In this document: one piece after another, positions 28,924 through 38,281 of the stretch
How the letters are laid out: every line of letters begins with the position of its first letter
Position numbering within the stretch: position 1 is the first letter of the stretch
Assembly (NCBI RefSeq): GCF_003710805.1
Contig: NZ_RHHB01000013.1
Location: forward strand, 1 to 64,000
Reading direction: 5' to 3'
DNA length: 64,000 bases
From: Agromyces tardus
GTDB lineage: Bacteria > Actinomycetota > Actinomycetes > Actinomycetales > Microbacteriaceae
Made by a program: the position numbers and the translations under genes
The notes under the pieces: model-generated
What the model was told of the DNA's origin: nothing
The model's input: the letters and a program-made list of their open reading frames with translations, nothing else
Database searches by the model: none

Positions 28924-30513
28924 CTATTCGGTGATGTCGACCTCGACCATGACGTCGGCGTCGATCGCCTGCCGCACCCGCTCGATGACGTCGGCGGGGA
29001 CCGGCGAGTCGACGGTGAGCACGCTGAGCGCCTGGCCACCGGCCTCGCGGCGGGCGATCTGCATGCCCGCGATGTTGATGCCGGCCTCGCCGAACTCGCT
29101 GCCGTACACGGCGACGATGCCCGGGCGGTCGGTGTAGAGCATGACGATGTGGTGGTCGGCGATCGGCACCTCCACGTCGTAGCCGTTGACGCCCACGAGC
29201 TTCTCGATCTGCTTCGTGCCCGTGAGGGTGCCCGACACCGACAGCTGCGTGCCGTCGGCGAGCGCGCCGCGCAGCGTGATGACGTTGCGGTACTCGGGGC
29301 TCTCGGCGTCGGTGATGAGGCGCACCGCGATGCCGCGCTGCTCGGCGAGGAGCGGCGCGTTGACGTACGAGACGGTCTCGCTCACGACGTTCGTGAAGAC
29401 GCCCTTGAGCGCGGCGAGCTTGAGCACGCTGACGTCGTAGTCGACGAGCTCGCCGTGCACCTCGACGTCGAGGCTCGTGAGCGGGCCGTGCGCGAGGCCC
29501 GCGAACAGCTGGCCCAGCTTCTCGACGAGCGGGATGCCGGGACGCACGTAGGGGTCGATGACGCCGCCGGCGACGTTGACCGCGTCGGGCACGAGCTCGC
29601 CGGCGAGCGCGAGGCGCACCGACTTCGCGACCGAGATGCCCGCCTTCTCCTGCGCCTCGTCGGTCGAGGCACCGAGGTGCGGCGTGACGACGACGTTCGG
29701 CAGGGCGAGCAGCGGCGACTCCTTCGGCGGCTCGGACACGAACACGTCGAGGCCCGCGCCGGCGATCGTTCCGGCGACGAGCGCGTCGTGCAGGTCGGAC
29801 TCGTCGATGAGTCCGCCGCGGGCGACGTTCACGATGTAGGCGGTGGGCTTCATCTTCGCGAGCTGCTCGGCGGCGATCATCCCGGTCGTCTCGGGGGTCT
29901 TCGGCATGTGGATCGTGATGAAGTCGGCGCGCTCGAGGAGCTCGTCGAGGGTCACGGTCTGCACGCCGAGCTGCTGGGCGCGCGTGGCGGTGATGTAGGG
30001 GTCGTACGCGATGACCTGCGTGCCGAACGCCTGCAGGCGCGCGGCGATGAGGGCGCCGATGCGGCCGAGGCCGATGATGCCCACGGTCTTCTCGTAGAGC
30101 TCGGTGCCGGTGTAGGCCGAGCGCTTCCACTCCCCCTTGGCGAGGGCCGCGTGCGCGGCGGGGATGTGACGGGCGAGGCTCAGGATGTGGCCGACCGTGA
30201 GCTCGGCGGCCGAGATGATGTTCGACGTCGGCGCGTTCACGACCATGACGCCGGCCGTGGTCGCGGCCTTGATGTCGACGTTGTCGAGACCCACGCCCGC
30301 GCGGGCGATGACCTTGAGCTGCTTCGCCGCGGCGATCGCCTCGGCGTCGACCCTGGTCGCGGAGCGCACGAGGATCGCGTGCGCGTCGGACAGCGCGGCG
30401 AGCAGCGCCGCACGGTCGGTGCCGTCGACGTTGCGGATCTCGAAGTCGGGCCCGAGGGCGTCGACGGTGGCGGGCGAGAGTTCTTCGGCGATCAGCACGA
30501 CCGGCTTTGACAC
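28924..30513 (-). CDS. serA: D-3-phosphoglycerate dehydrogenase
   Basis: A 529-residue long-type SerA (first step of serine synthesis). NAD fold GIIGLGRIGALIAARL, catalytic Arg in NVARGGLIDE, catalytic His in TPHLGAST. The intervening ASB domain (about 315-450) and C-terminal ACT domain (HHIVMLYTDRPGIVAVYG) suggest serine feedback. The GTG at 30513 has AAGGA at 7 nt and gives the usual family length; a GTG at 30528 is less likely. Stands alone between two terminator/promoter regions. Confidence 0.96.
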   Translation of the reverse strand: MSKPVVLIAEELSPATVDALGPDFEIRNVDGTDRAALLAALSDAHAILVRSATRVDAEAIAAAKQLKVIARAGVGLDNVDIKAATTAGVMVVNAPTSNIISAAELTVGHILSLARHIPAAHAALAKGEWKRSAYTGTELYEKTVGIIGLGRIGALIAARLQAFGTQVIAYDPYITATRAQQLGVQTVTLDELLERADFITIHMPKTPETTGMIAAEQLAKMKPTAYIVNVARGGLIDESDLHDALVAGTIAGAGLDVFVSEPPKESPLLALPNVVVTPHLGASTDEAQEKAGISVAKSVRLALAGELVPDAVNVAGGVIDPYVRPGIPLVEKLGQLFAGLAHGPLTSLDVEVHGELVDYDVSVLKLAALKGVFTNVVSETVSYVNAPLLAEQRGIAVRLITDAESPEYRNVITLRGALADGTQLSVSGTLTGTKQIEKLVGVNGYDVEVPIADHHIVMLYTDRPGIVAVYGSEFGEAGINIAGMQIARREAGGQALSVLTVDSPVPADVIERVRQAIDADVMVEVDITE

Positions 30514-30597
30514 GAACGGGTCCTTCACGGGCTCGGGGAAACCGTGCGAGATGCACGGGAATGCGCCGGCGTCGTCGGAGGCGCGGATGACGCAGCC

Positions 30598-30603
30598 ACT
30601 CTA
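30598..30603 (-). promoter_or_regulatory. Probable -10 element for serA
   Basis: TAGAGT on the minus strand, about 85 bp upstream of the serA start in a 146-bp gap otherwise without genes. No clear -35. Confidence 0.4.
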
Positions 30604-30659
30604 CTTCAGGCGGTCGCCCCGGCCGATTTCTGTGACGCCGTGCGAGATCGGCGACGCGT

Positions 30660-31070
30660 TCAGGCGAAGAGCGCGCCCGGCCCGAGCAGGAGCACGATGT
30701 CGAGGTACAGCAGCGCCGAGACGGCGAGGCCCGCGAGGTAGAAGCCCGCCTGCAGGAGCAGGGATCGGCGTCGGCCGAGCACGAAGGCCGCGGCGAACAG
30801 GCCGATCGGCAGCACGACCGCGGCGATGAGCAGCACCCAGCCGACCGCGGTGATGCTGGTGTCGAGCGCCGCCGCGTACTGCGACAGGCCCACGAGGTTG
30901 CCCACGGCCTCCCACACGTCGTACGCGTAGAAGAGGCCGAAGAGCACCGCGAGCGCGACGCGCAGGGGGAAGAACGCGGGGCGAGCGGATGCCGCCGGCC
31001 CGGCCGCGGTGGCCTGCTCCCCCACGTCGGACCGCTCGCCTGCCTGCTCGGGCTCCACCGCCTCGGTCAT
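30660..31070 (-). CDS. Small membrane protein, unknown
   Basis: A 136-residue protein: 30 acidic/Ala-rich cytoplasmic residues, then three or four transmembrane helices (VALAVLFGLFYAYDVWEAV, AVGWVLLIAAVVLPIGLFAAAFVL, FYLAGLAVSALLYLDIVLLL). No family recognised. ATGA overlap with the preceding membrane-protein gene shows they form a two-gene unit and probably a complex. Confidence 0.75.
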   Translation of the reverse strand: MTEAVEPEQAGERSDVGEQATAAGPAASARPAFFPLRVALAVLFGLFYAYDVWEAVGNLVGLSQYAAALDTSITAVGWVLLIAAVVLPIGLFAAAFVLGRRRSLLLQAGFYLAGLAVSALLYLDIVLLLGPGALFA

Positions 31071-31618
31071 GCCGTCACCCCCATCACGAACGGCAGCGGG
31101 ACCAGCACGATGGCGCCCGCCAACAGCCAGACGAGGCGCACCCGCGGGCGGCCTCGCGTCGCCGCGAACGCGACGGCGTACCAGAGGGCCGGAGCCAGCA
31201 CCGCGAGCCACAGCCCGACCGAGAACATGAACGACGCGACCGGGTCGTCGCCGCCGAGCGCGCCGAACCCGGTGGCGGTGAGGATCCATCCGATCGTGTA
31301 CAGCAGGTACACGCCGCCGAAGACCCCGAGCAGCACGAGCTCGGCGGAGCCGGGCTGCGTCGCGGCATCCGCTTCGGTCTCGGCCTCCGCTTCGACGGGC
31401 TCATCGGCGTCGACCGCCCCCGCGGCCGGCTCGCCGGTGTCGACGGGCCCGGAGGCTGCCGCATCCGTCGTGCCGGCGTCGGCGCGAGTGCCGGCACCGG
31501 CGTCGCGAGCCTCGGCGGGCACGTCGACGGGGCGGCCCACTCGCTTCCATCCGGGTGCGAGGGTGGGGTCGTCGTCGCCCTCCCAGCGCAGGGCTTCGTC
31601 GTCGGGATCGCCGCTCAT
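31067..31618 (-). CDS. Membrane protein with acidic N-terminal tail, unknown
   Basis: A 183-residue protein. Residues 1-90 are acidic, Ala/Asp/Glu-rich and start with DEALRWEGDDDPTLAPGWKRVG, a conserved-looking tryptophan motif. Three transmembrane helices follow (LVLLGVFGGVYLLYTIGWIL, FSVGLWLAVLAPALWYAVAF, LVWLLAGAIVLVPLPFVMG). Upstream partner of the 136-residue membrane protein. Confidence 0.75.
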   Translation of the reverse strand: MSGDPDDEALRWEGDDDPTLAPGWKRVGRPVDVPAEARDAGAGTRADAGTTDAAASGPVDTGEPAAGAVDADEPVEAEAETEADAATQPGSAELVLLGVFGGVYLLYTIGWILTATGFGALGGDDPVASFMFSVGLWLAVLAPALWYAVAFAATRGRPRVRLVWLLAGAIVLVPLPFVMGVTA

Positions 31619-31668
31619 GCCCTCACCCTATCGAGGGCGGGGGCATGCACGGCGTGACCGGGCGGCGG

Positions 31669-31989
31669 CTATCCCGCGGCGCACAGGCTCGGGTCGGCGG
31701 GGACCGGGGCCGGCTCGGGGGTCGAGGGCTCGCAGAAGGCGGTGCGAGCGCGGTCGACGAGCTCGTCGACGTACCGGTCGGCACTCGCCCGGACGATCCG
31801 GAGGTGCATGTCGACGCGGTCGAGGAGCTCCTCGACATAGCGGTCGGCGCTCGCGCGCACGAGCTGGCGGTGCCCCGCGGGGGTCTGGCCCCACTCGGGT
31901 GCGGGGGCCGTCGCGCAGGACGCGAGGCCGGCCGCGGCGATGAGCACGAGGCCTGCGAGGGCGGTGCGGGTGTTCTGTGTGTGTTCCAT
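31669..31989 (-). CDS. Small lipoprotein with duplicated 22-residue motif
   Basis: A 106-residue lipoprotein: signal peptide, then lipobox LASC at about residue 22-25. The mature part contains two copies, exactly 22 residues apart, of VRASADRYVxELxDR, predicted amphipathic helix, then a Pro-rich end with two Cys. Not recognised. GGAGG is 1 nt before the ATG and CATCGT lies 6 nt before it, so leaderless initiation is possible. It diverges from the BTAD/nSTAND regulator and three phased direct repeats lie just upstream of its promoter, so it is the likely target gene, a role like that of the small AfsS in streptomycetes (inference). Confidence 0.75.
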   Translation of the reverse strand: MEHTQNTRTALAGLVLIAAAGLASCATAPAPEWGQTPAGHRQLVRASADRYVEELLDRVDMHLRIVRASADRYVDELVDRARTAFCEPSTPEPAPVPADPSLCAAG

Positions 31990-32007
31990 GCCTCCACGAT
32001 GGCGAGG

Positions 32008-32051
32008 GGCGGTATGAGGGCACGCCGCCGCCGGTATGAGGGCGGTATGAG
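32008..32051. promoter_or_regulatory. SARP-type direct-repeat box
   Basis: GGTATGAG (CTCATACC on the minus strand) occurs at 32011-32018, 32033-32040 and 32044-32051, at steps of 22 and 11 bp. The array is four 11-bp units, one degenerate. SARP regulators bind heptamer direct repeats with 11/22-bp phasing upstream of the -10. The last copy ends 9 bp before a possible -10 (CATCGT, 32001-31996, minus) of the lipoprotein gene. Confidence 0.75.
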
Positions 32052-32067
32052 CGTCGGGATGCCGCCA

Positions 32068-32096
32068 TTGACACCCGTCGCTCCCGCTCGCACACT
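32068..32096 (+). promoter_or_regulatory. Promoter of the BTAD/nSTAND regulator
   Basis: Consensus -35 TTGACA (32068-32073), 17-bp spacer, weak -10 CACACT (32091-32096). Transcription would start close to the ATG at 32103, a leaderless mRNA; no Shine-Dalgarno is present. Confidence 0.5.
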
Positions 32097-32102
32097 GCAG
32101 GC

Positions 32103-35100
32103 ATGGGCATCGACGTGCTCGGAACGCTCTCGACGGATGACGCGGCGCTCAGCCCGCAGGAACGGGCGGTGGTCGCCGCACTGGCGGTGGATCCGGGTCG
32201 TGAGGTGCGCCCGGGCGACCTCGCGGAGGCCTGCTGGGGCGAGGACGTCCCACGCACCTGGCAGAAGCAGGTGCAGGCGCTCGTCTCGCGTGTGCGTCGC
32301 CGACTCGGCCCCGGCGTCATCGTGACGACCGCGCAGGGCTACGCGCTCGGCGTCGACCCCGAGACGCTCGACTCGGTGCGGTTCGAGCACCTCGTGGAGC
32401 GGGCGCGGCGTCATCAGGGCGACGGCGATCCGGAGCGCGCGATCGCGGGGTACGAACGCGCGCTCGAGCTCTGGCGCGGTCCGGCGTTCTCGGATGTCGC
32501 GGCCTGGCCGCCCGCGTCGGTGGAGGCCGCCCGCCTCGACGAGATGCGACGCGGCGCCGAGGAGGAGCTGCTGCAGGCGCACCTCGACTGCGGCGAGCAC
32601 CACAGCGTCATCGCCGAGGCGGAGCGGTTGGTCCGGGCCGAGCCGCTCTCGGAGCGACGCTGGTCGATCCTCGCCATCGCGCTCTACCGCAGCGGTCGCC
32701 AGGCCGACGCGCTCGCGGCCCTGCGGCGGCTGCGCGAGGAGCTCGAGACGCGACTCGGCGTCGACCCGGGTGCGGGGATCGCGGCCCTCGAGACCGACAT
32801 CCTGCGCCAGGACCCGCGACTGGACCCCCCGTCCGCCCCGCGGGCCACCCGGGCCGGGAATCCGTACAAGGGACTGCGTCCCTTCCGCATCGAGGACGCC
32901 GGCGACTTCTTCGGACGCGAACCCGAGATCGCCGCGGTGCTGCAGCGCCTCGAACAGGTGCACCTCGTCGCCGTGGTCGGCCCGTCGGGCAGCGGCAAGT
33001 CCTCGCTCGTGCTCGCCGGCGTGGCGCCGCGGCTGCGCGACCGGGGCCGCGCGCCGGTGATCCTCACACCGCAGGACCGGCTTCGCATCGGCGACGTCGT
33101 GATCATCGACCAGTTCGAGGACGCCTTCCACCCCGGTTGGACCGGGGCCGACTCGGCCGCGTACTGCGACGCCGTCGCGCAGATCGTCGAGGCCGGTCAC
33201 GACGTCATCCTCGACCTGCGCTCCGACGCGCTCGACCGGTGCATCGCCGATCCTCGGCTCGGACCGTTCGTCACGAGGGGCCTCGTCGTGCTCGCTCCCC
33301 CCTCGGCGGACGCGCTGCGCCTCGCGATCGAGGAGCCGGCGAGGTTCGCGGGCCTCCGCGTGGAGCACGGCCTGACCGAGCTCGTCCTCCGCGACGCCGC
33401 CGGGCAGCCGGGCGTGCTGCCGCACCTCTCCCACGCCCTCGCCGAGACCTGGCGGCAGCGCGAGGGCTCGGTGCTCACGGTCGAGGCGTACGAATCGGTC
33501 GGCGGCATCGGCGGCGCGATCGCCCGGTCGGCCGAGGAACTGTACCTCGGGCTCACGACGGAGGAGCGGGCGCAGTGCCAGGCGTTGCTCCGGCGGCTCG
33601 TGTCGCTGACGCCCGACGGACGCACCGTGCAGCACCGGGTCGCGGTCGGCCCGCTCCGGCAGGACGCGCACCGCTCCGCGATCATCGCCCGACTCGTGGA
33701 CGCGCGGCTCGTGAGCGTGGTGGACGACACGATCACGGTCGCGCACGAGTCGCTCGCGACGGCATGGCCGCGGCTGCACGCGTGGCTCGAGCAGGACGCC
33801 GAGGGTGCACGCGTTCTGGCGCAGCTGGCCGCGGCCGCCGAGTCGTGGGACCAAGCCGGCCGCCCGGCCGACGAGCTCTACCGCGGGGCCCGGCTCCGCA
33901 CCGCCCTCGAATGGCGTGGGACCTCCTCCCCGGACCTCACGCGGACGGAGTCCGACTTCCTCGACGCGTCGGCCGAGCGGGAGTTCGCCGACGAGCGACG
34001 AGCGACCGCGCGGGCCCGACGGGAACGACGGCAGAACCGCGTGCTGCGCGGCGCGCTCGCGAGCGCGGTCGTGCTGCTCGTGGCATCCGTCACCGCGACC
34101 GCCTTCGCCGTGCGCGGCGCCGAGGACGCCGCGCGGGAACGTCGGTCGGCGGACATCGGCGCGCTCGTCGGCACGTCGCTCTCCCTGCGGTCGTCGCAGC
34201 GGGCGGTGGCGGCGCTCCTCGCCGTCGAGGCGCACGCCCGTTGGCCCGAGGATCCGCGCACGCGCGCGTCCCTGATGGGCACGTTCACCGCCGCACCCGC
34301 GCTGGTCGGCACGTCGACCGTCGGCGGGACCGAGCGCATCGTCGCAGCACCGCTGCCCGGTGGCGACGAGGCCGTCGTGCTGCGCGAGGACGGCACCGCC
34401 GGGGTGTACGACGTCGCGACCGCGCGACTCGTCCGCGATCTCGAGGTGCCGCCGAGCCCGGCTGCGTTCGCCCGCCCCCCGCTGGTCGCAGTGAGCAGCG
34501 GAGGCGCCACGGCGGTCATCGTGCGCCCCGTCGCCATCGGATCCGACGTGTTCGACTTCACGGCCGCGTCCGAGCTCGTCGCGGTGGACCTCGGCTCCGG
34601 CGAGGCGATCGCACCCCCGGAGACCCTGAGCATCGGCGCCGCCGGCCTGGCCGTGGATGCCGCCGGCTCGCGCGCCGCCGCCGTGGGACTCGACGGCCGC
34701 ATCCGCATCGTCGACCTCGACACCATGTGGAGCGCGTCGGTCGAGGACGTCGAGCCAGCGGGTCGGATCGCGGTCGCCTTCCTCGACGACGGAGGACTCG
34801 TGATCGGCTCCACCGACGCCGTCACGATCCTCGACCCGGCGGAGCGCACCGTCGTCCGTCGATTCGCCGTGCCGCCGGGGTTCGCCGGGGGAACCATCGC
34901 GACCGCCGGATCGACCGTCGTCGCAGCCGGCGATGCAGGCATCACCCTGATCGACATCGCGTCCGGCGGGCCGATGTGGAAGCGCGACGCCGACTCGGCG
35001 GCCGCTGCGTGCACGTCGCTCACGGTCTCCCCGGTGCACGAGGCCGTCTGGTGCACGACCGAGGCGGGCGAGATCGTGCAACACGACCTCACGACCGGAG

Positions 35101-36200
35101 CCTCGACGGCGCGGTTCCCGCAACGCGCGGCCGGGGTGTTCCCACGCGCGGACGGCGGCGAGCTCGTCGCCGTCGGGGTCGCGGAACCGGTGTTCTCCAG
35201 GTGGGGCCTCGACGGCGGCGGCGCGGTCACCCGCGTGATCGCCTCCGGGGCACATGGTGCCGTGGGCTACGACCCCGCGGGGTCCGCGGTGCTCGTCTCC
35301 GACGGTTCCTCGCGGCTGCACGTCTGGGACACGAGCGCCGACGAGAGCAGGCTGGTGCTCCCCGAGACCACCTCACGCGCTCTCTGGGCCGGCGACGACC
35401 TGCTCCTCGCGGGGATCACGCCGGGCGGCGGCCCCGTTCTGCTGGATGCCACGACCGGCGAGCTCCAGCCGAGCGACGGCGTACCGTCGCTCACCGATTC
35501 CGCGTGGACCGGTCCGGCGGGTCGACGCACCGTGGTCGCCGCGGGCGGCAACGACCTGCGCGTGATCGACCCGGCCACGGGCGAACGGCTCGCCGGACCG
35601 TTCGACCTCGGCGCCCGGCCGACCTCGGTGAGTCTGCTCGCGGACGGCTCGCGCCTCCTCGTGACGACGCTGCTGGGCGGTGTCTCGACGAGCCGGGTGC
35701 TCGACGCCGCAGACGGCGAGGCCGTCTCGCCGGAACTCGTCGGACCATCGATCACGACGGCGGCGGGCGACACCCTCGTCGGCGCCTACGGGACGCGCCT
35801 CCTGACCTACGACCCGGCCGGCCTCTCCGTGACCGGGTCGCTGCCGAGCGCCGCTGCCGGCATCACCTCGCTGCAGGCGAGCACCGACGGCAGCACGGTG
35901 CTGGCGACGGGGACCGACGGATCGGCGACCCTCTTCGATCTCGACGGCGGCGTGCAGTTGGGCGACGCGATCCCCTCGGCCGGCGGCGACGGATTCGCGG
36001 CCTCGCTGAGGCCTGACGGCGGTGAGCTCGCGGTGGCACTCACGGACGGACTGCAGCTCTGGGACCTCGATCCCGATGTGCAGGCCGAGGCTGCCTGCCG
36101 GATCGCGGGGCGCGACCTCACGCGAGCGGAATGGGACACCTACCTCGGTGCGATCGCGTCCTACCGCTCGACGTGCGGGTTCGGGTCCACTGACGGGTGA
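32103..36200 (+). CDS. Transmembrane BTAD (SARP-like) regulator with nSTAND NTPase and beta-propeller
   Basis: A 1,365-residue multidomain regulator. Residues 1-95 are an OmpR/SARP winged helix (WQKQVQALVSRVRRRLG, ending VTTAQGYALGV). Residues 97-240 are the BTAD helical domain (ALELWRGPAFSDV, DALAALRRLREELETRLG). Residues 255-560 are an nSTAND1 NTPase: entry motif NPYKGLRPF, Walker A VVGPSGSGKSS (about 291), Walker B VVIIDQFEDAF (about 331). A single transmembrane helix (LASAVVLLVASVTATAFAV) lies at about 648-668. Residues 680-1365 are WD40/PQQ-like propeller repeats, expected outside the cell. This suggests a one-component sensor: ligand outside, ATP switch and DNA binding inside. It likely acts at the phased repeats upstream. 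Confidence 0.9.
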   Translation: MGIDVLGTLSTDDAALSPQERAVVAALAVDPGREVRPGDLAEACWGEDVPRTWQKQVQALVSRVRRRLGPGVIVTTAQGYALGVDPETLDSVRFEHLVERARRHQGDGDPERAIAGYERALELWRGPAFSDVAAWPPASVEAARLDEMRRGAEEELLQAHLDCGEHHSVIAEAERLVRAEPLSERRWSILAIALYRSGRQADALAALRRLREELETRLGVDPGAGIAALETDILRQDPRLDPPSAPRATRAGNPYKGLRPFRIEDAGDFFGREPEIAAVLQRLEQVHLVAVVGPSGSGKSSLVLAGVAPRLRDRGRAPVILTPQDRLRIGDVVIIDQFEDAFHPGWTGADSAAYCDAVAQIVEAGHDVILDLRSDALDRCIADPRLGPFVTRGLVVLAPPSADALRLAIEEPARFAGLRVEHGLTELVLRDAAGQPGVLPHLSHALAETWRQREGSVLTVEAYESVGGIGGAIARSAEELYLGLTTEERAQCQALLRRLVSLTPDGRTVQHRVAVGPLRQDAHRSAIIARLVDARLVSVVDDTITVAHESLATAWPRLHAWLEQDAEGARVLAQLAAAAESWDQAGRPADELYRGARLRTALEWRGTSSPDLTRTESDFLDASAEREFADERRATARARRERRQNRVLRGALASAVVLLVASVTATAFAVRGAEDAARERRSADIGALVGTSLSLRSSQRAVAALLAVEAHARWPEDPRTRASLMGTFTAAPALVGTSTVGGTERIVAAPLPGGDEAVVLREDGTAGVYDVATARLVRDLEVPPSPAAFARPPLVAVSSGGATAVIVRPVAIGSDVFDFTAASELVAVDLGSGEAIAPPETLSIGAAGLAVDAAGSRAAAVGLDGRIRIVDLDTMWSASVEDVEPAGRIAVAFLDDGGLVIGSTDAVTILDPAERTVVRRFAVPPGFAGGTIATAGSTVVAAGDAGITLIDIASGGPMWKRDADSAAAACTSLTVSPVHEAVWCTTEAGEIVQHDLTTGASTARFPQRAAGVFPRADGGELVAVGVAEPVFSRWGLDGGGAVTRVIASGAHGAVGYDPAGSAVLVSDGSSRLHVWDTSADESRLVLPETTSRALWAGDDLLLAGITPGGGPVLLDATTGELQPSDGVPSLTDSAWTGPAGRRTVVAAGGNDLRVIDPATGERLAGPFDLGARPTSVSLLADGSRLLVTTLLGGVSTSRVLDAADGEAVSPELVGPSITTAAGDTLVGAYGTRLLTYDPAGLSVTGSLPSAAAGITSLQASTDGSTVLATGTDGSATLFDLDGGVQLGDAIPSAGGDGFAASLRPDGGELAVALTDGLQLWDLDPDVQAEAACRIAGRDLTRAEWDTYLGAIASYRSTCGFGSTDG

Positions 36201-36243
36201 GGCGGGGACGCCTGCTCGTCGCCGGGGCCCTCGGCATGCCGGC

Positions 36244-36271
36244 GGCGGGGCCGGCCGAAGCCGACCCCGCC
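36244..36271 (-). terminator. UUCG-loop hairpin after the nucleotidase gene
   Basis: On the minus strand: GGCGGGG-U-CGGC, loop UUCG, GCCG-G-CCCCGCC, twelve pairs counting one U-G. On the plus strand that pair would be a C/A mismatch, so the minus transcript is the functional one. No T tract. The same 28-bp element recurs at 38282. Confidence 0.65.
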
Positions 36272-36309
36272 GCGCTGGTGGTGGTGCGTGGTGCGGGTGC
36301 GACCGGAGG

Positions 36310-38169
36310 TCAGAACACGGGCGTGCCGTTCCGCACGAGCCGCCAGTTCTCGACGTGGAAGTCGGCCGGATCGATCGTGCCCGCCGCCGAGGCGTACGAC
36401 ACGATCGCCTCCCGGATGGCCACCTGGGCGTTGTAGACCACCGGGGCGCCCGCGATGTGCGGGAACCCGCCGCCGCCGGACTGGCGGTAGTTGTTGACCG
36501 CGACGAGGAACTGCTGGTCGGATGCGACGGGCGCACCGTTGTAGGCGAGGCCCACGATGCGCGAGCCGACCGGCTGGGAGATGTCGACGCCGTACTCGAC
36601 GCCCGAGAACTGGTCGTAGTTGTAGTCGGGCGTGTTGCCGGCGTTGGTCCACGTCGCCGGCGCCACCGGTGCCGCGGGATCCACCTGCACGAAGTACTTC
36701 GCCGAGTACTCGAGGTAGTCCTTGATCTGGGCTCCCGTGAGGATCGAGGCGAGCAGCGTGTTGTCGTAGATGTAGAGTCCCGCGACGTCCTTGATCGTGA
36801 CCTGGCCGGCCGGGAACGTGGCCGCGCGGTTGAACGGCGCGGCAATCGAGACGACGGGCAGCGCCGCCTCGGGCGTGCCCGCCACCGCCGCGGCGACGGT
36901 CGCCGTCTGCACGGCGTTCACGTAGTCGAGGATCGCCGTGTCCTTCCAGCACGCCTCGGCCGCCGACATGGCCTCGGTCGAGACCGCCACCGGCGTGTTG
37001 ACGTAGGCGACGACCGCCTCGTGCTGGGCCTTGACGACGGCGACGAGCGCGGGGTCGTCGACCACGGTGTTCGTGTTCACGGTCAGCGCCGAGCCCGTGG
37101 TGACGCTCCACTTGCCGCGGGCGAACTCGAGCGTGAGGTCGAACACGCTCACCCGCTGACCCCAGTTCTTCGGCTCGCTGAGCACCACCTGCCGACCGGT
37201 CTGGGCGTTCGTGACCAGGCGCTGCGGCACGTCCTTGTGGGCGTGCCCGAACAGGATCGCGTCGATGCCGGGCACCTGCTCGGCGACCAGCGCGGCGGCG
37301 TTCTCGATGGGAAGGTCGCCGACGTACGAGGAGGTGCCGCTGTCGCCCGCATGCGCGCTCACGACCACGACATCGGCTCCCGCGGCACGGATGACCGGCA
37401 CCCACCGGGCCGCCGCCTCCACGAGGCCCTGCACTTCGAGCTTGCCGCTCACGTTCGCCTTGTCCCAGATCACGACACCGGGGTTGGTGAGGCCGAGCAC
37501 GCCGACACGGATCGGCGGACGCCCCTTCACCTTCATCCGCTTGATCGTGTACGGCGTGAAGGCGGGCACCTTCGTGCCGGCGTGCACGGCGTTCGCGGCG
37601 AGCACGTCGGCGTCCATCTGCGAGATCCAGTAGTCGAGGAAGTCCAGGCCGTAGTTGAACTCGTGGTTGCCGAGCGCGACGGCGTCGTAGCCGATCGCGT
37701 TCATCTGCGCGGCCATCGGATGGATCGCGCCGGATTGGGTGACGGGGTCGACGAGCGCGTAGTAGAACCCGAGCGGCGAGCCCTGGATGGTGTCGCCGGC
37801 GTCGAACAGCAGCGTGTGCTCCCGCCCGCGATCGGCCCGGATCTGGTTCACGACGCTCGACACCCGCGCGAGGCCGACGGCGTTGCCGGCGCTGTCGCTG
37901 AAGGTGGCGTCCTTGTAGTAGTCCCAGTTCACGGCGTTGCTGTGCAGGTCGGAGGTGCCCATGATCGTGATGGTCACGGAGTCGTCGCCGGGCGCGGCCT
38001 GGGCGGAGCCGGGCCATCCGGCCGCCGCGAGCACGCCGGCGGCCGACAGGCCGACCAGTACGTTGCGTCGGCTGACGCCGGGGGTCGTGGGCTCCAGTTC
38101 GTCGTCGGGGACGGCGCAGGAGCACCAGCGTGGAGTGGGTTCGGGGTCACGGTGCGTGTGCAGGGTCAT
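36310..38169 (-). CDS. Tat-exported 5'-nucleotidase / cyclic nucleotide phosphodiesterase family
   Basis: About 619 residues. A twin-arginine signal (SRRNVLVGLSAAGVLAAAG, ending AQA) directs folded export. The metallophosphatase domain has GTSDLHSN (DxH), FDAGDTIQG, ALGNHEFNYG (GNHE), a later AHAG and FGHAHKD (GHxH). The C-terminal nucleotidase substrate domain follows from about residue 395, with YDNTLLASILTGAQIKDYLE, NYDQFSG and NYRQSGGGG. This matches CpdB/UshA enzymes that release phosphate and nucleosides from external nucleotides. ATG 38169 preferred to a GTG at 38187; neither has a strong Shine-Dalgarno. Flanked by two copies of the UUCG hairpin. Confidence 0.92.
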   Translation of the reverse strand: MTLHTHRDPEPTPRWCSCAVPDDELEPTTPGVSRRNVLVGLSAAGVLAAAGWPGSAQAAPGDDSVTITIMGTSDLHSNAVNWDYYKDATFSDSAGNAVGLARVSSVVNQIRADRGREHTLLFDAGDTIQGSPLGFYYALVDPVTQSGAIHPMAAQMNAIGYDAVALGNHEFNYGLDFLDYWISQMDADVLAANAVHAGTKVPAFTPYTIKRMKVKGRPPIRVGVLGLTNPGVVIWDKANVSGKLEVQGLVEAAARWVPVIRAAGADVVVVSAHAGDSGTSSYVGDLPIENAAALVAEQVPGIDAILFGHAHKDVPQRLVTNAQTGRQVVLSEPKNWGQRVSVFDLTLEFARGKWSVTTGSALTVNTNTVVDDPALVAVVKAQHEAVVAYVNTPVAVSTEAMSAAEACWKDTAILDYVNAVQTATVAAAVAGTPEAALPVVSIAAPFNRAATFPAGQVTIKDVAGLYIYDNTLLASILTGAQIKDYLEYSAKYFVQVDPAAPVAPATWTNAGNTPDYNYDQFSGVEYGVDISQPVGSRIVGLAYNGAPVASDQQFLVAVNNYRQSGGGGFPHIAGAPVVYNAQVAIREAIVSYASAAGTIDPADFHVENWRLVRNGTPVF

Positions 38170-38281
38170 GGGACACGATGCGACCACACGCGGGCACCCC
38201 CTGACAAGGGGTTGAGCATGATCGGTTCGTGCTCATTCGCGCACGGGGAGAACGGGCGGTGGACGACGGGTGAACGCCGAC

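Follow-up and report, generated by a model that had tools for sequence, protein, structure and literature searches.

SARP boxes are known mostly from single pathways. In the AfsR-afsS pair of Streptomyces coelicolor, as far as the account in PMC10936776 goes, a wHTH-BTAD-NTPase regulator activates the adjacent small gene, and 11-bp direct repeats lie shortly before a suboptimal -10 that is accompanied by a poor -35. The AfsR box spans -40 to -19, and the first 8 bp of each 11 are reported there to be contacted (PMC10936776); the AfsR site is given in PMC10972967 as CGTT(T/C)ATCGNN. In the PimR-pimM pair of Streptomyces natalensis, which belongs to the SARP-LAL type, three heptamers are described in the gap between regulator and target in related clusters, with one monomer of PimR per heptamer (PMC5930380). 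A gene pair that resembles both is found in Agromyces tardus, where three phased units lie between a small lipoprotein gene and a divergent regulator gene, and the AfsR site shares the letters CGTTCAT with the unit found in two close relatives (G003 and G049). Differences from the described systems are also evident. According to its description in PMC10936776, which mentions no outer propeller, AfsR carries NOD and TPR domains, and its box has two units at 11 bp, whereas the Agromyces box has three at 22 and 11 bp. PimR, as presented in PMC5930380, is an ATP-binding SARP-LAL protein of an antifungal cluster with 11+11 spacing, and the same heptamer is given for PimR, SanG and PolR, while the words of the Agromyces paralogues differ. 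The PimR operator does not overlap the -35 (PMC5930380), as is the case on the regulator side of the Agromyces box.

The window, that is, the whole stretch of 64 kb that was analysed, contains the word GGTATGAG exactly three times, always on the plus strand. An earlier note on this DNA had described three copies at steps of 22 and 11 bp in a 113-bp gap between a small lipoprotein gene and a BTAD-domain regulator. Indeed, exact matches start at 32011, 32033 and 32044, and the gap measures 113 bp between the lipoprotein ATG (31987-31989, minus strand) and the regulator ATG (32103, plus strand). Unit R1 (32011..32018) is the nearest to the lipoprotein gene and corresponds to CTCATACC when read toward it; R2 (32033..32040) follows 22 bp after R1, and R3 (32044..32051) 11 bp after R2, all on the plus strand, R3 preceding a TTGACA hexamer by 24 bp from start to start. 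The box thus has the direct repeats at 11 or 22 bp that characterize SARP operators. Shuffles of the window contain on average 0.37 matches to GGTATGAG, with three or more in 1 of 100 dinucleotide shuffles; when the gap (31990-32102) was shuffled 20,000 times with dinucleotides preserved, any 8-mer was found three times in 16 shuffles and an 11-bp-phased triple in none. The three-unit phase of the Agromyces box is beyond chance. In the assembly of this organism (4.06 Mb, 91 contigs), the exact pattern GGTATGAN{4,15}GGTATGA has no match outside the box, and a global regulon for the word GGTATGA is unsupported by this single exact box, unlike AfsR, which is called a global regulator. When up to three mismatches are allowed, GGTATGAGNNNGGTATGAG retrieves from the same genome the box site and three 3-mismatch sites against 2 matches of a reversed control pattern, so that degenerate sites may occur elsewhere in the genome.

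The box sits between two predicted divergent promoters, which refines the earlier reading. The promoter of the regulator itself, absent from the description in the earlier note, would consist of the -35 TTGACA (32068..32073, plus strand) and a likely -10, CACACT (32091..32096, plus strand), at a 17-bp spacer and 6 bp before the start codon. On the other side, the copy nearest the lipoprotein gene had been placed 9 bp from a possible -10, and on the minus strand R1 is in fact followed, after 9 bp, by CATCGT (31996..32001), the likely -10 of the lipoprotein gene. Among the 43 loci with a readable first unit, the hallmark of this -10 recurs past R1 on the lipoprotein strand, with A at position 11 in 39 and T at position 15 in 41, the two T misses being G049, in which the inner copy of a duplicated box was read, and G012c1_22154, which has no lipoprotein ORF by the filter applied. 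No -35 was seen on the lipoprotein side, where the best candidates match 1-3 of 6 positions in 43/43 loci, whereas the TTGAC -35 on the regulator side matches 5-6 of 6 in 41/43. In a clade with the word GATATC, the lipoprotein ATG lies about 34 bp farther off and the position of the -10 is unchanged. The last repeat of a SARP operator is placed about 8 bp from the -10 of its target, and the distance of 9 bp to the putative -10, by the word limits used here, is in line with it; likewise, the box lies over a poor -35 on the lipoprotein side, unlike the regulator side, which does not look SARP-dependent because its predicted -35 is intact. If the lipoprotein mRNA starts at its own ATG, R1 would occupy -29 to -22, the slot of the downstream repeat of AfsR; the upstream slot (-40 to -33) is empty here, the remaining two units, R2 and R3, forming an 11-bp pair still farther upstream. 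In most loci, 6-7 bp separate the -10 of the regulator from the start codon, and the same distance is found on the lipoprotein side where the gap is 112-115 bp; leaderless mRNAs are thus expected on both strands.

Membrane-tethered one-component regulators of the ToxR/CadC type have a winged helix inside, one transmembrane helix and a sensor outside, and Apaf-1 is a STAND NTPase with two WD40 propellers. The product of the regulator gene (32103..36200, plus strand, 1365 aa) appears to combine features of both with those of a SARP. Profile matches place a wHTH at residues 14-80, a BTAD domain at 89-234 and the best stretch of nSTAND1 at 332-589; hydropathy predicts a transmembrane helix at about residues 652-670, a hydrophobic stretch at about 650-666 being present in nearly all full-length relatives, and strands of WD40-type propellers span about residues 734-1321 in a structure model. 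The BTAD domain claimed by the earlier note is clear (PF03704, 131.5 bits, cut-off 22.1), and, together with the OmpR-type winged helix (PF00486, 26.5 bits, cut-off 26.2), it gives the domain pair expected of SARPs, while nSTAND1 (312.9 bits, cut-off 27.1) identifies a STAND NTPase. The regulator aligns with the AfsR structure 8hvr at an E-value of 2.5e-34, with residues 15-246 aligning with AfsR structures. Identity with AfsR itself was rejected, as the NCBIfam equivalog NF053617 reached 149.9 bits against a cut-off of 1430. The protein is also not a large SARP with NB-ARC and a C-terminal TPR array, having nSTAND1, the predicted transmembrane helix and WD40 propellers instead, and a profile search for TPR in the regulator returned just one sub-threshold TPR_2 match, inside BTAD. 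A role in phage defence found no support in PADLOC-DB, whose models gave no more than two partial and weak matches (E 0.0011 and 0.0046). The transmembrane helix is predicted in 46 of 47 relatives of at least 1000 aa; in all of these 46, the side before it is the more positive, and 45 of them have an even number of Cys residues after it. A structure model built with 29 sequences for residues 641-1365 has a mean pLDDT of 87.4 and a pTM of 0.68 and shows propeller folds, and a profile search against the PDB gave 468 sequences at E <=0.01, mostly WD40 proteins among the 60 matches listed. Two-propeller proteins, Apaf-1 included, are among the Foldseek matches with low TM-scores (0.2-0.4), so that the arrangement of the propellers stays tentative; for Apaf-1, 5juy and 3sfz occupy ranks 10, 11 and 33 among the best 50 rows, at TM-scores of only 0.33-0.39 by query. 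The regulator would share with Apaf-1 an NTPase followed by tandem propellers, and differs from it in that a predicted transmembrane helix parts the two and the N-terminus is a DNA-binding domain; with ToxR/CadC-type regulators it would share a winged helix inside, one transmembrane helix and a sensor outside, whereas a BTAD domain or STAND NTPase is not known in that type. Taken together, it looks like a membrane-tethered SARP with the predicted order wHTH-BTAD-nSTAND1-TM-WD40 propellers. Truncated or frameshifted regulators are found at L012 (G003, 776 aa), L074 (G013), L070 (G018), L146 (G742), L102 (G030) and L165 (G465), and several of these loci keep intact boxes, resembling a fast-turnover gene family.

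The likely target is the small lipoprotein gene (31669..31989, minus strand), which encodes 106 aa with a LASC lipobox and two near-identical copies of VRASADRYV[ED]EL. A divergent lipoprotein ORF is present by the filter in 48 of 81 loci and absent in the other 33. In 26 of the 48, a peptide is repeated within the lipoprotein, with a score that no more than 2 of 200 shuffles reached; the repeat varies by clade, being ADRYVDEL here and DLAERR, DLAESRAQM, DPRGHH, GGLPDYA or NRMDFGD elsewhere; six loci (G007, G037c3, G353, G443, G784b and G583) have larger lipoproteins of 241-284 aa that lack such a repeat. Co-transcription of the lipoprotein gene with the next gene, a small membrane gene at 31067-31618, is unlikely as a rule because that gene lies about 1 kb away in G049 and about 7 kb away in G003. 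The region 28924-38187 of the window appears as a variable chromosomal site, flanked at one end by serA and the small membrane gene and at the other by a nucleotidase gene (36310-38187). The cassette of lipoprotein and regulator lies between or beside these three genes in 20 of 32 stretches, either alone or in runs of as many as four. The membrane and nucleotidase genes are less than 20 kb apart in 18 of 60 genus genomes: a cassette is located between them in five (G000, G012, G018, G021 and G031), they are separated by only 59 and 90 bp in two (G048 and G007), and 0.9 to 15.6 kb intervene in the other 11. Across genomes of the genus, the site is occupied by one to four cassettes, by other sequence, or by nothing.

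Relatives were searched with the N-terminal part of the regulator, whose nearest named match is in Agromyces sp. ISL-38 (81%). Among 60 Agromyces-genus genomes, 29 had a match at 1e-20 and 23 at 1e-35, and in the family sample 11 of 398 genomes had one. Of the 53 genus places obtained, 50 entered a word-blind scan and 44 a set of 52 loci completed by 8 family loci; excluded from this set were 8 more distant BTAD proteins as well as the second G030 piece. Order and class searches gave matches in 28/396 and 45/394 genomes, only the top few of the class search being close relatives; subtraction of five general BTAD proteins from 36 order and class loci left 31, with lower-scoring general BTAD class matches left out. 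In the word-blind scan of 50 upstream regions, the pair (22,11) ranked first of 676 spacing pairs, with a score of 882 versus a mean of 611 (sd 32), and for 20 of the 50 loci no other pair beat it; among the scanned genes, six distant BTAD genes (L034-L038 and L059) gave 11-14 of 24. A second scan of 30 of the 31 later loci, which belong to other families (G476 was left out), again placed (22,11) first of 676 (530 versus 374, sd 20), with 11 as the top pair spacing. An alignment of the gap in relatives, as proposed in the earlier note, showed that G049 and G003, the two closest orthologues (81 and 79% identity in the N-terminal part), keep the units and their phase; a loss of repeats or phasing in close relatives with both genes, which that note had named as a refutation, was not seen. 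With TTGAC as the anchor of the alignment, three units spaced by 21-22 and 11 bp were recognized in 41 of the 52 related loci and not in the other 11, a count that relied on a word pattern for unit recognition, unlike the word-blind scan. In the 31 later loci, words occur two or more times on an 11-bp lattice before TTGAC in 28, in some of them one helix turn nearer to TTGAC. By reading the alignment, the first step is 21 bp instead of 22 in some clades, and in several a fourth unit follows after another 9 bp. In G049 (L005, 2876-2949), the box is enlarged by a 33-bp, three-turn unit to five units in phase, and in G056 the first unit is lost together with about 21 bp, the lipoprotein start being closer by the same amount (gap 93). 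The reading of the repeats as a SARP box next to a SARP-like regulator, put forward in the earlier note, is supported by this comparison of related loci, with the regulator as the putative binder. At L082 (G047), a different divergent ORF of 146 aa, with no lipobox by the filter, is found at 113 bp, and box and spacing are kept; this box may have the 146-aa ORF as a new target.

The word itself differs by clade, and the copies within a locus tend to change together. All three 7-mers are identical in 23 of the 41 three-unit loci, and copies within a locus agree in 816 of 861 comparisons, against 645 +/- 9.6 (maximum 680) in 2000 among-locus shuffles that ignore relatedness. About a dozen natural box words occur in the regulator family. 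Normalised mutual information with the word, computed over residues 1-250, is highest for residues 59 (0.90), 19 (0.88) and 58 (0.87); the codons of Q58, A59 and L60 (32274..32282, plus strand) correspond, by alignment to AfsR, to R87, T88 and Y89. In a co-change test on a tree of 72 rows built without the helix (G465 was left out of the trees), residue 58 changes at each of the three changes of base 2 (rank 1 among 216 columns, p 8.6e-6 uncorrected), and 6 of the 11 changes of residue 59 coincide with changes at bases 4-6 (rank 1 of 216, p 3.9e-4 uncorrected). In 25 resampled trees, the pair of residue 58 and base 2 ranked first in 25/25, and residue 59 with bases 4-6 had a median rank of 6 of 217, being in the top ten in 18/25 with a worst rank of 97. 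For the whole word on the tree, residue 59 comes second to residue 77. When bases are tested one by one, residue 59 ranks 1, 2 and 3 for bases 5, 6 and 4, with residue 13 ahead of it for base 6, and residue 58 is second to residue 170 for base 2. Since the word pattern nearly fixes bases 1 and 3, their invariance is no evidence. Two further rules were dropped: that of residue 60 for base 7 (L-A, F-G, S-C), clear by eye, is not robust on resampled trees, and a reading of base 4 (GGTGTCA/GGTATCA) by residues 62 and 52 is suggestive in f18 only, with G742_25456 and G657c34_18717 as exceptions.

T59 accompanies the word GGTACTC wherever this word occurs (7 loci), in the helix backgrounds KQVQT and QQVKT, and the helix rule has three misfits in the first set (G018_796754, G018_805927 and G022). 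Fixed beforehand and applied to new loci with A, T, I or N at residue 59 and a box, the rule predicted the word class in 8 of 10, nine of these ten coming from one genus and so amounting to about two lineages; G684 and G807 agreed by two of three units, G643 and G694 were misses, and G476 has no box. By alignment, residue 58 corresponds to R87 and residue 59 to T88 of AfsR, which are described in PMC10936776 as a phosphate contact and as a base contact at position 5 of the AfsR repeat, respectively; position 5 equals base 6 of the Agromyces word if the shared CGTTCAT is aligned (site from PMC10972967). The box word thus appears to track recognition-helix residues 58-59 as an association, less stably for 59 than for 58. 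Words differ in 33 of 36 within-genome cassette pairs; avoidance of equal words within a genome was rejected, 3 equal pairs being seen versus 3.9 in shuffles.

These observations bear on who reads the box and for which gene. Tandem duplication might leave neutral repeats that are in phase by chance, and the box of G049 did grow by a 33-bp duplication; however, the phase persists as the copies of a locus change their word jointly, and this explanation is scarcely credible. A different OmpR-type protein could bind the repeats, for instance a PhoP-like response regulator that shares the Streptomyces site of AfsR, and PhoP is indeed described as a competitor of AfsR at the afsS site (PMC10972967). 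If one outside factor served all these boxes, a single word would be expected, whereas the words differ in nearly all of the within-genome pairs and follow the clade and the helix of the adjacent regulator, which makes such a reader very improbable.

The regulator side raises a more serious objection, namely that the box is mainly autoregulatory and the lipoprotein gene a passive neighbour. When loci are aligned on TTGAC, there is very little variation in the regulator promoter (TTGAC, 17 bp, -10 and start) or in the distance between R3 and TTGAC, and in other bacterial families the 22+11 phase is kept and the spacing of the lipoprotein-side -10 is not, being present in just 3 of 30 loci. In Microbacteriaceae, by contrast, the lipoprotein side has a -10 at 9 bp and no -35, as in an activator-dependent promoter; in G012c1_22154, where no lipoprotein ORF was found, that -10 is not seen either; and a promoter whose -35 is intact has the least need of an activator. 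We regard a mainly autoregulatory box as unlikely. The box is instead probably a dedicated SARP-type operator between the divergent genes of a pair, read by a membrane-tethered SARP that activates the lipoprotein gene.

The operator reading builds on features taken directly from the sequences: the units, their phase, the promoter-like geometry in relatives, the joint change of the copies and the association with residues 58-59. The winged helix, BTAD domain and nSTAND1 NTPase would lie inside the cell, connected by one transmembrane helix to WD40 propellers outside. Once active, the regulator may place a protomer on each unit, all on the same face of the helix, and the protomer on the unit 9 bp upstream of the lipoprotein -10 would fill the slot of the downstream repeat of AfsR. 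The bound regulator could then replace the -35 contact by sigma adaptation, as described for AfsR, and switch on the lipoprotein gene, while the same complex, being upstream of the TTGAC promoter of the regulator, would probably tune the expression of the regulator. Residues 58 and 59 of the recognition helix would help to set the word that is read, so that paralogues differ in their boxes, and the propellers might act as outward sensors with the lipoprotein as their partner. A bolder and rather doubtful extension is that the pairs are mutually insulated, swappable cassettes, in which the lipoprotein repeat (ADRYVDEL, DLAERR, DPRGHH or GGLPDYA) is, or releases, the ligand of the propellers of its own regulator, whose own helix reads its own DNA word; swapped at one chromosomal site, they would form a kin- or self-recognition code written in peptide and DNA box.

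As an operator, the Agromyces box would be a further member of the known SARP-box type, a placement well supported by comparison. A literature search restricted to open-licence papers found no membrane-anchored SARP with STAND and outer propellers, and the whole would be a variant on that type, combining a predicted membrane-tethered STAND-SARP, a repeat lipoprotein and a box word that appears to follow the helix. That the gene pairs keep their spacing while word and helix change together points to matched sets of switch and box. Collectively, about a dozen words in one recurring geometry, together with differing recognition helices, make a SARP recognition code testable, and the lipoprotein partners hint at a signalling route of actinobacteria yet to be characterised.
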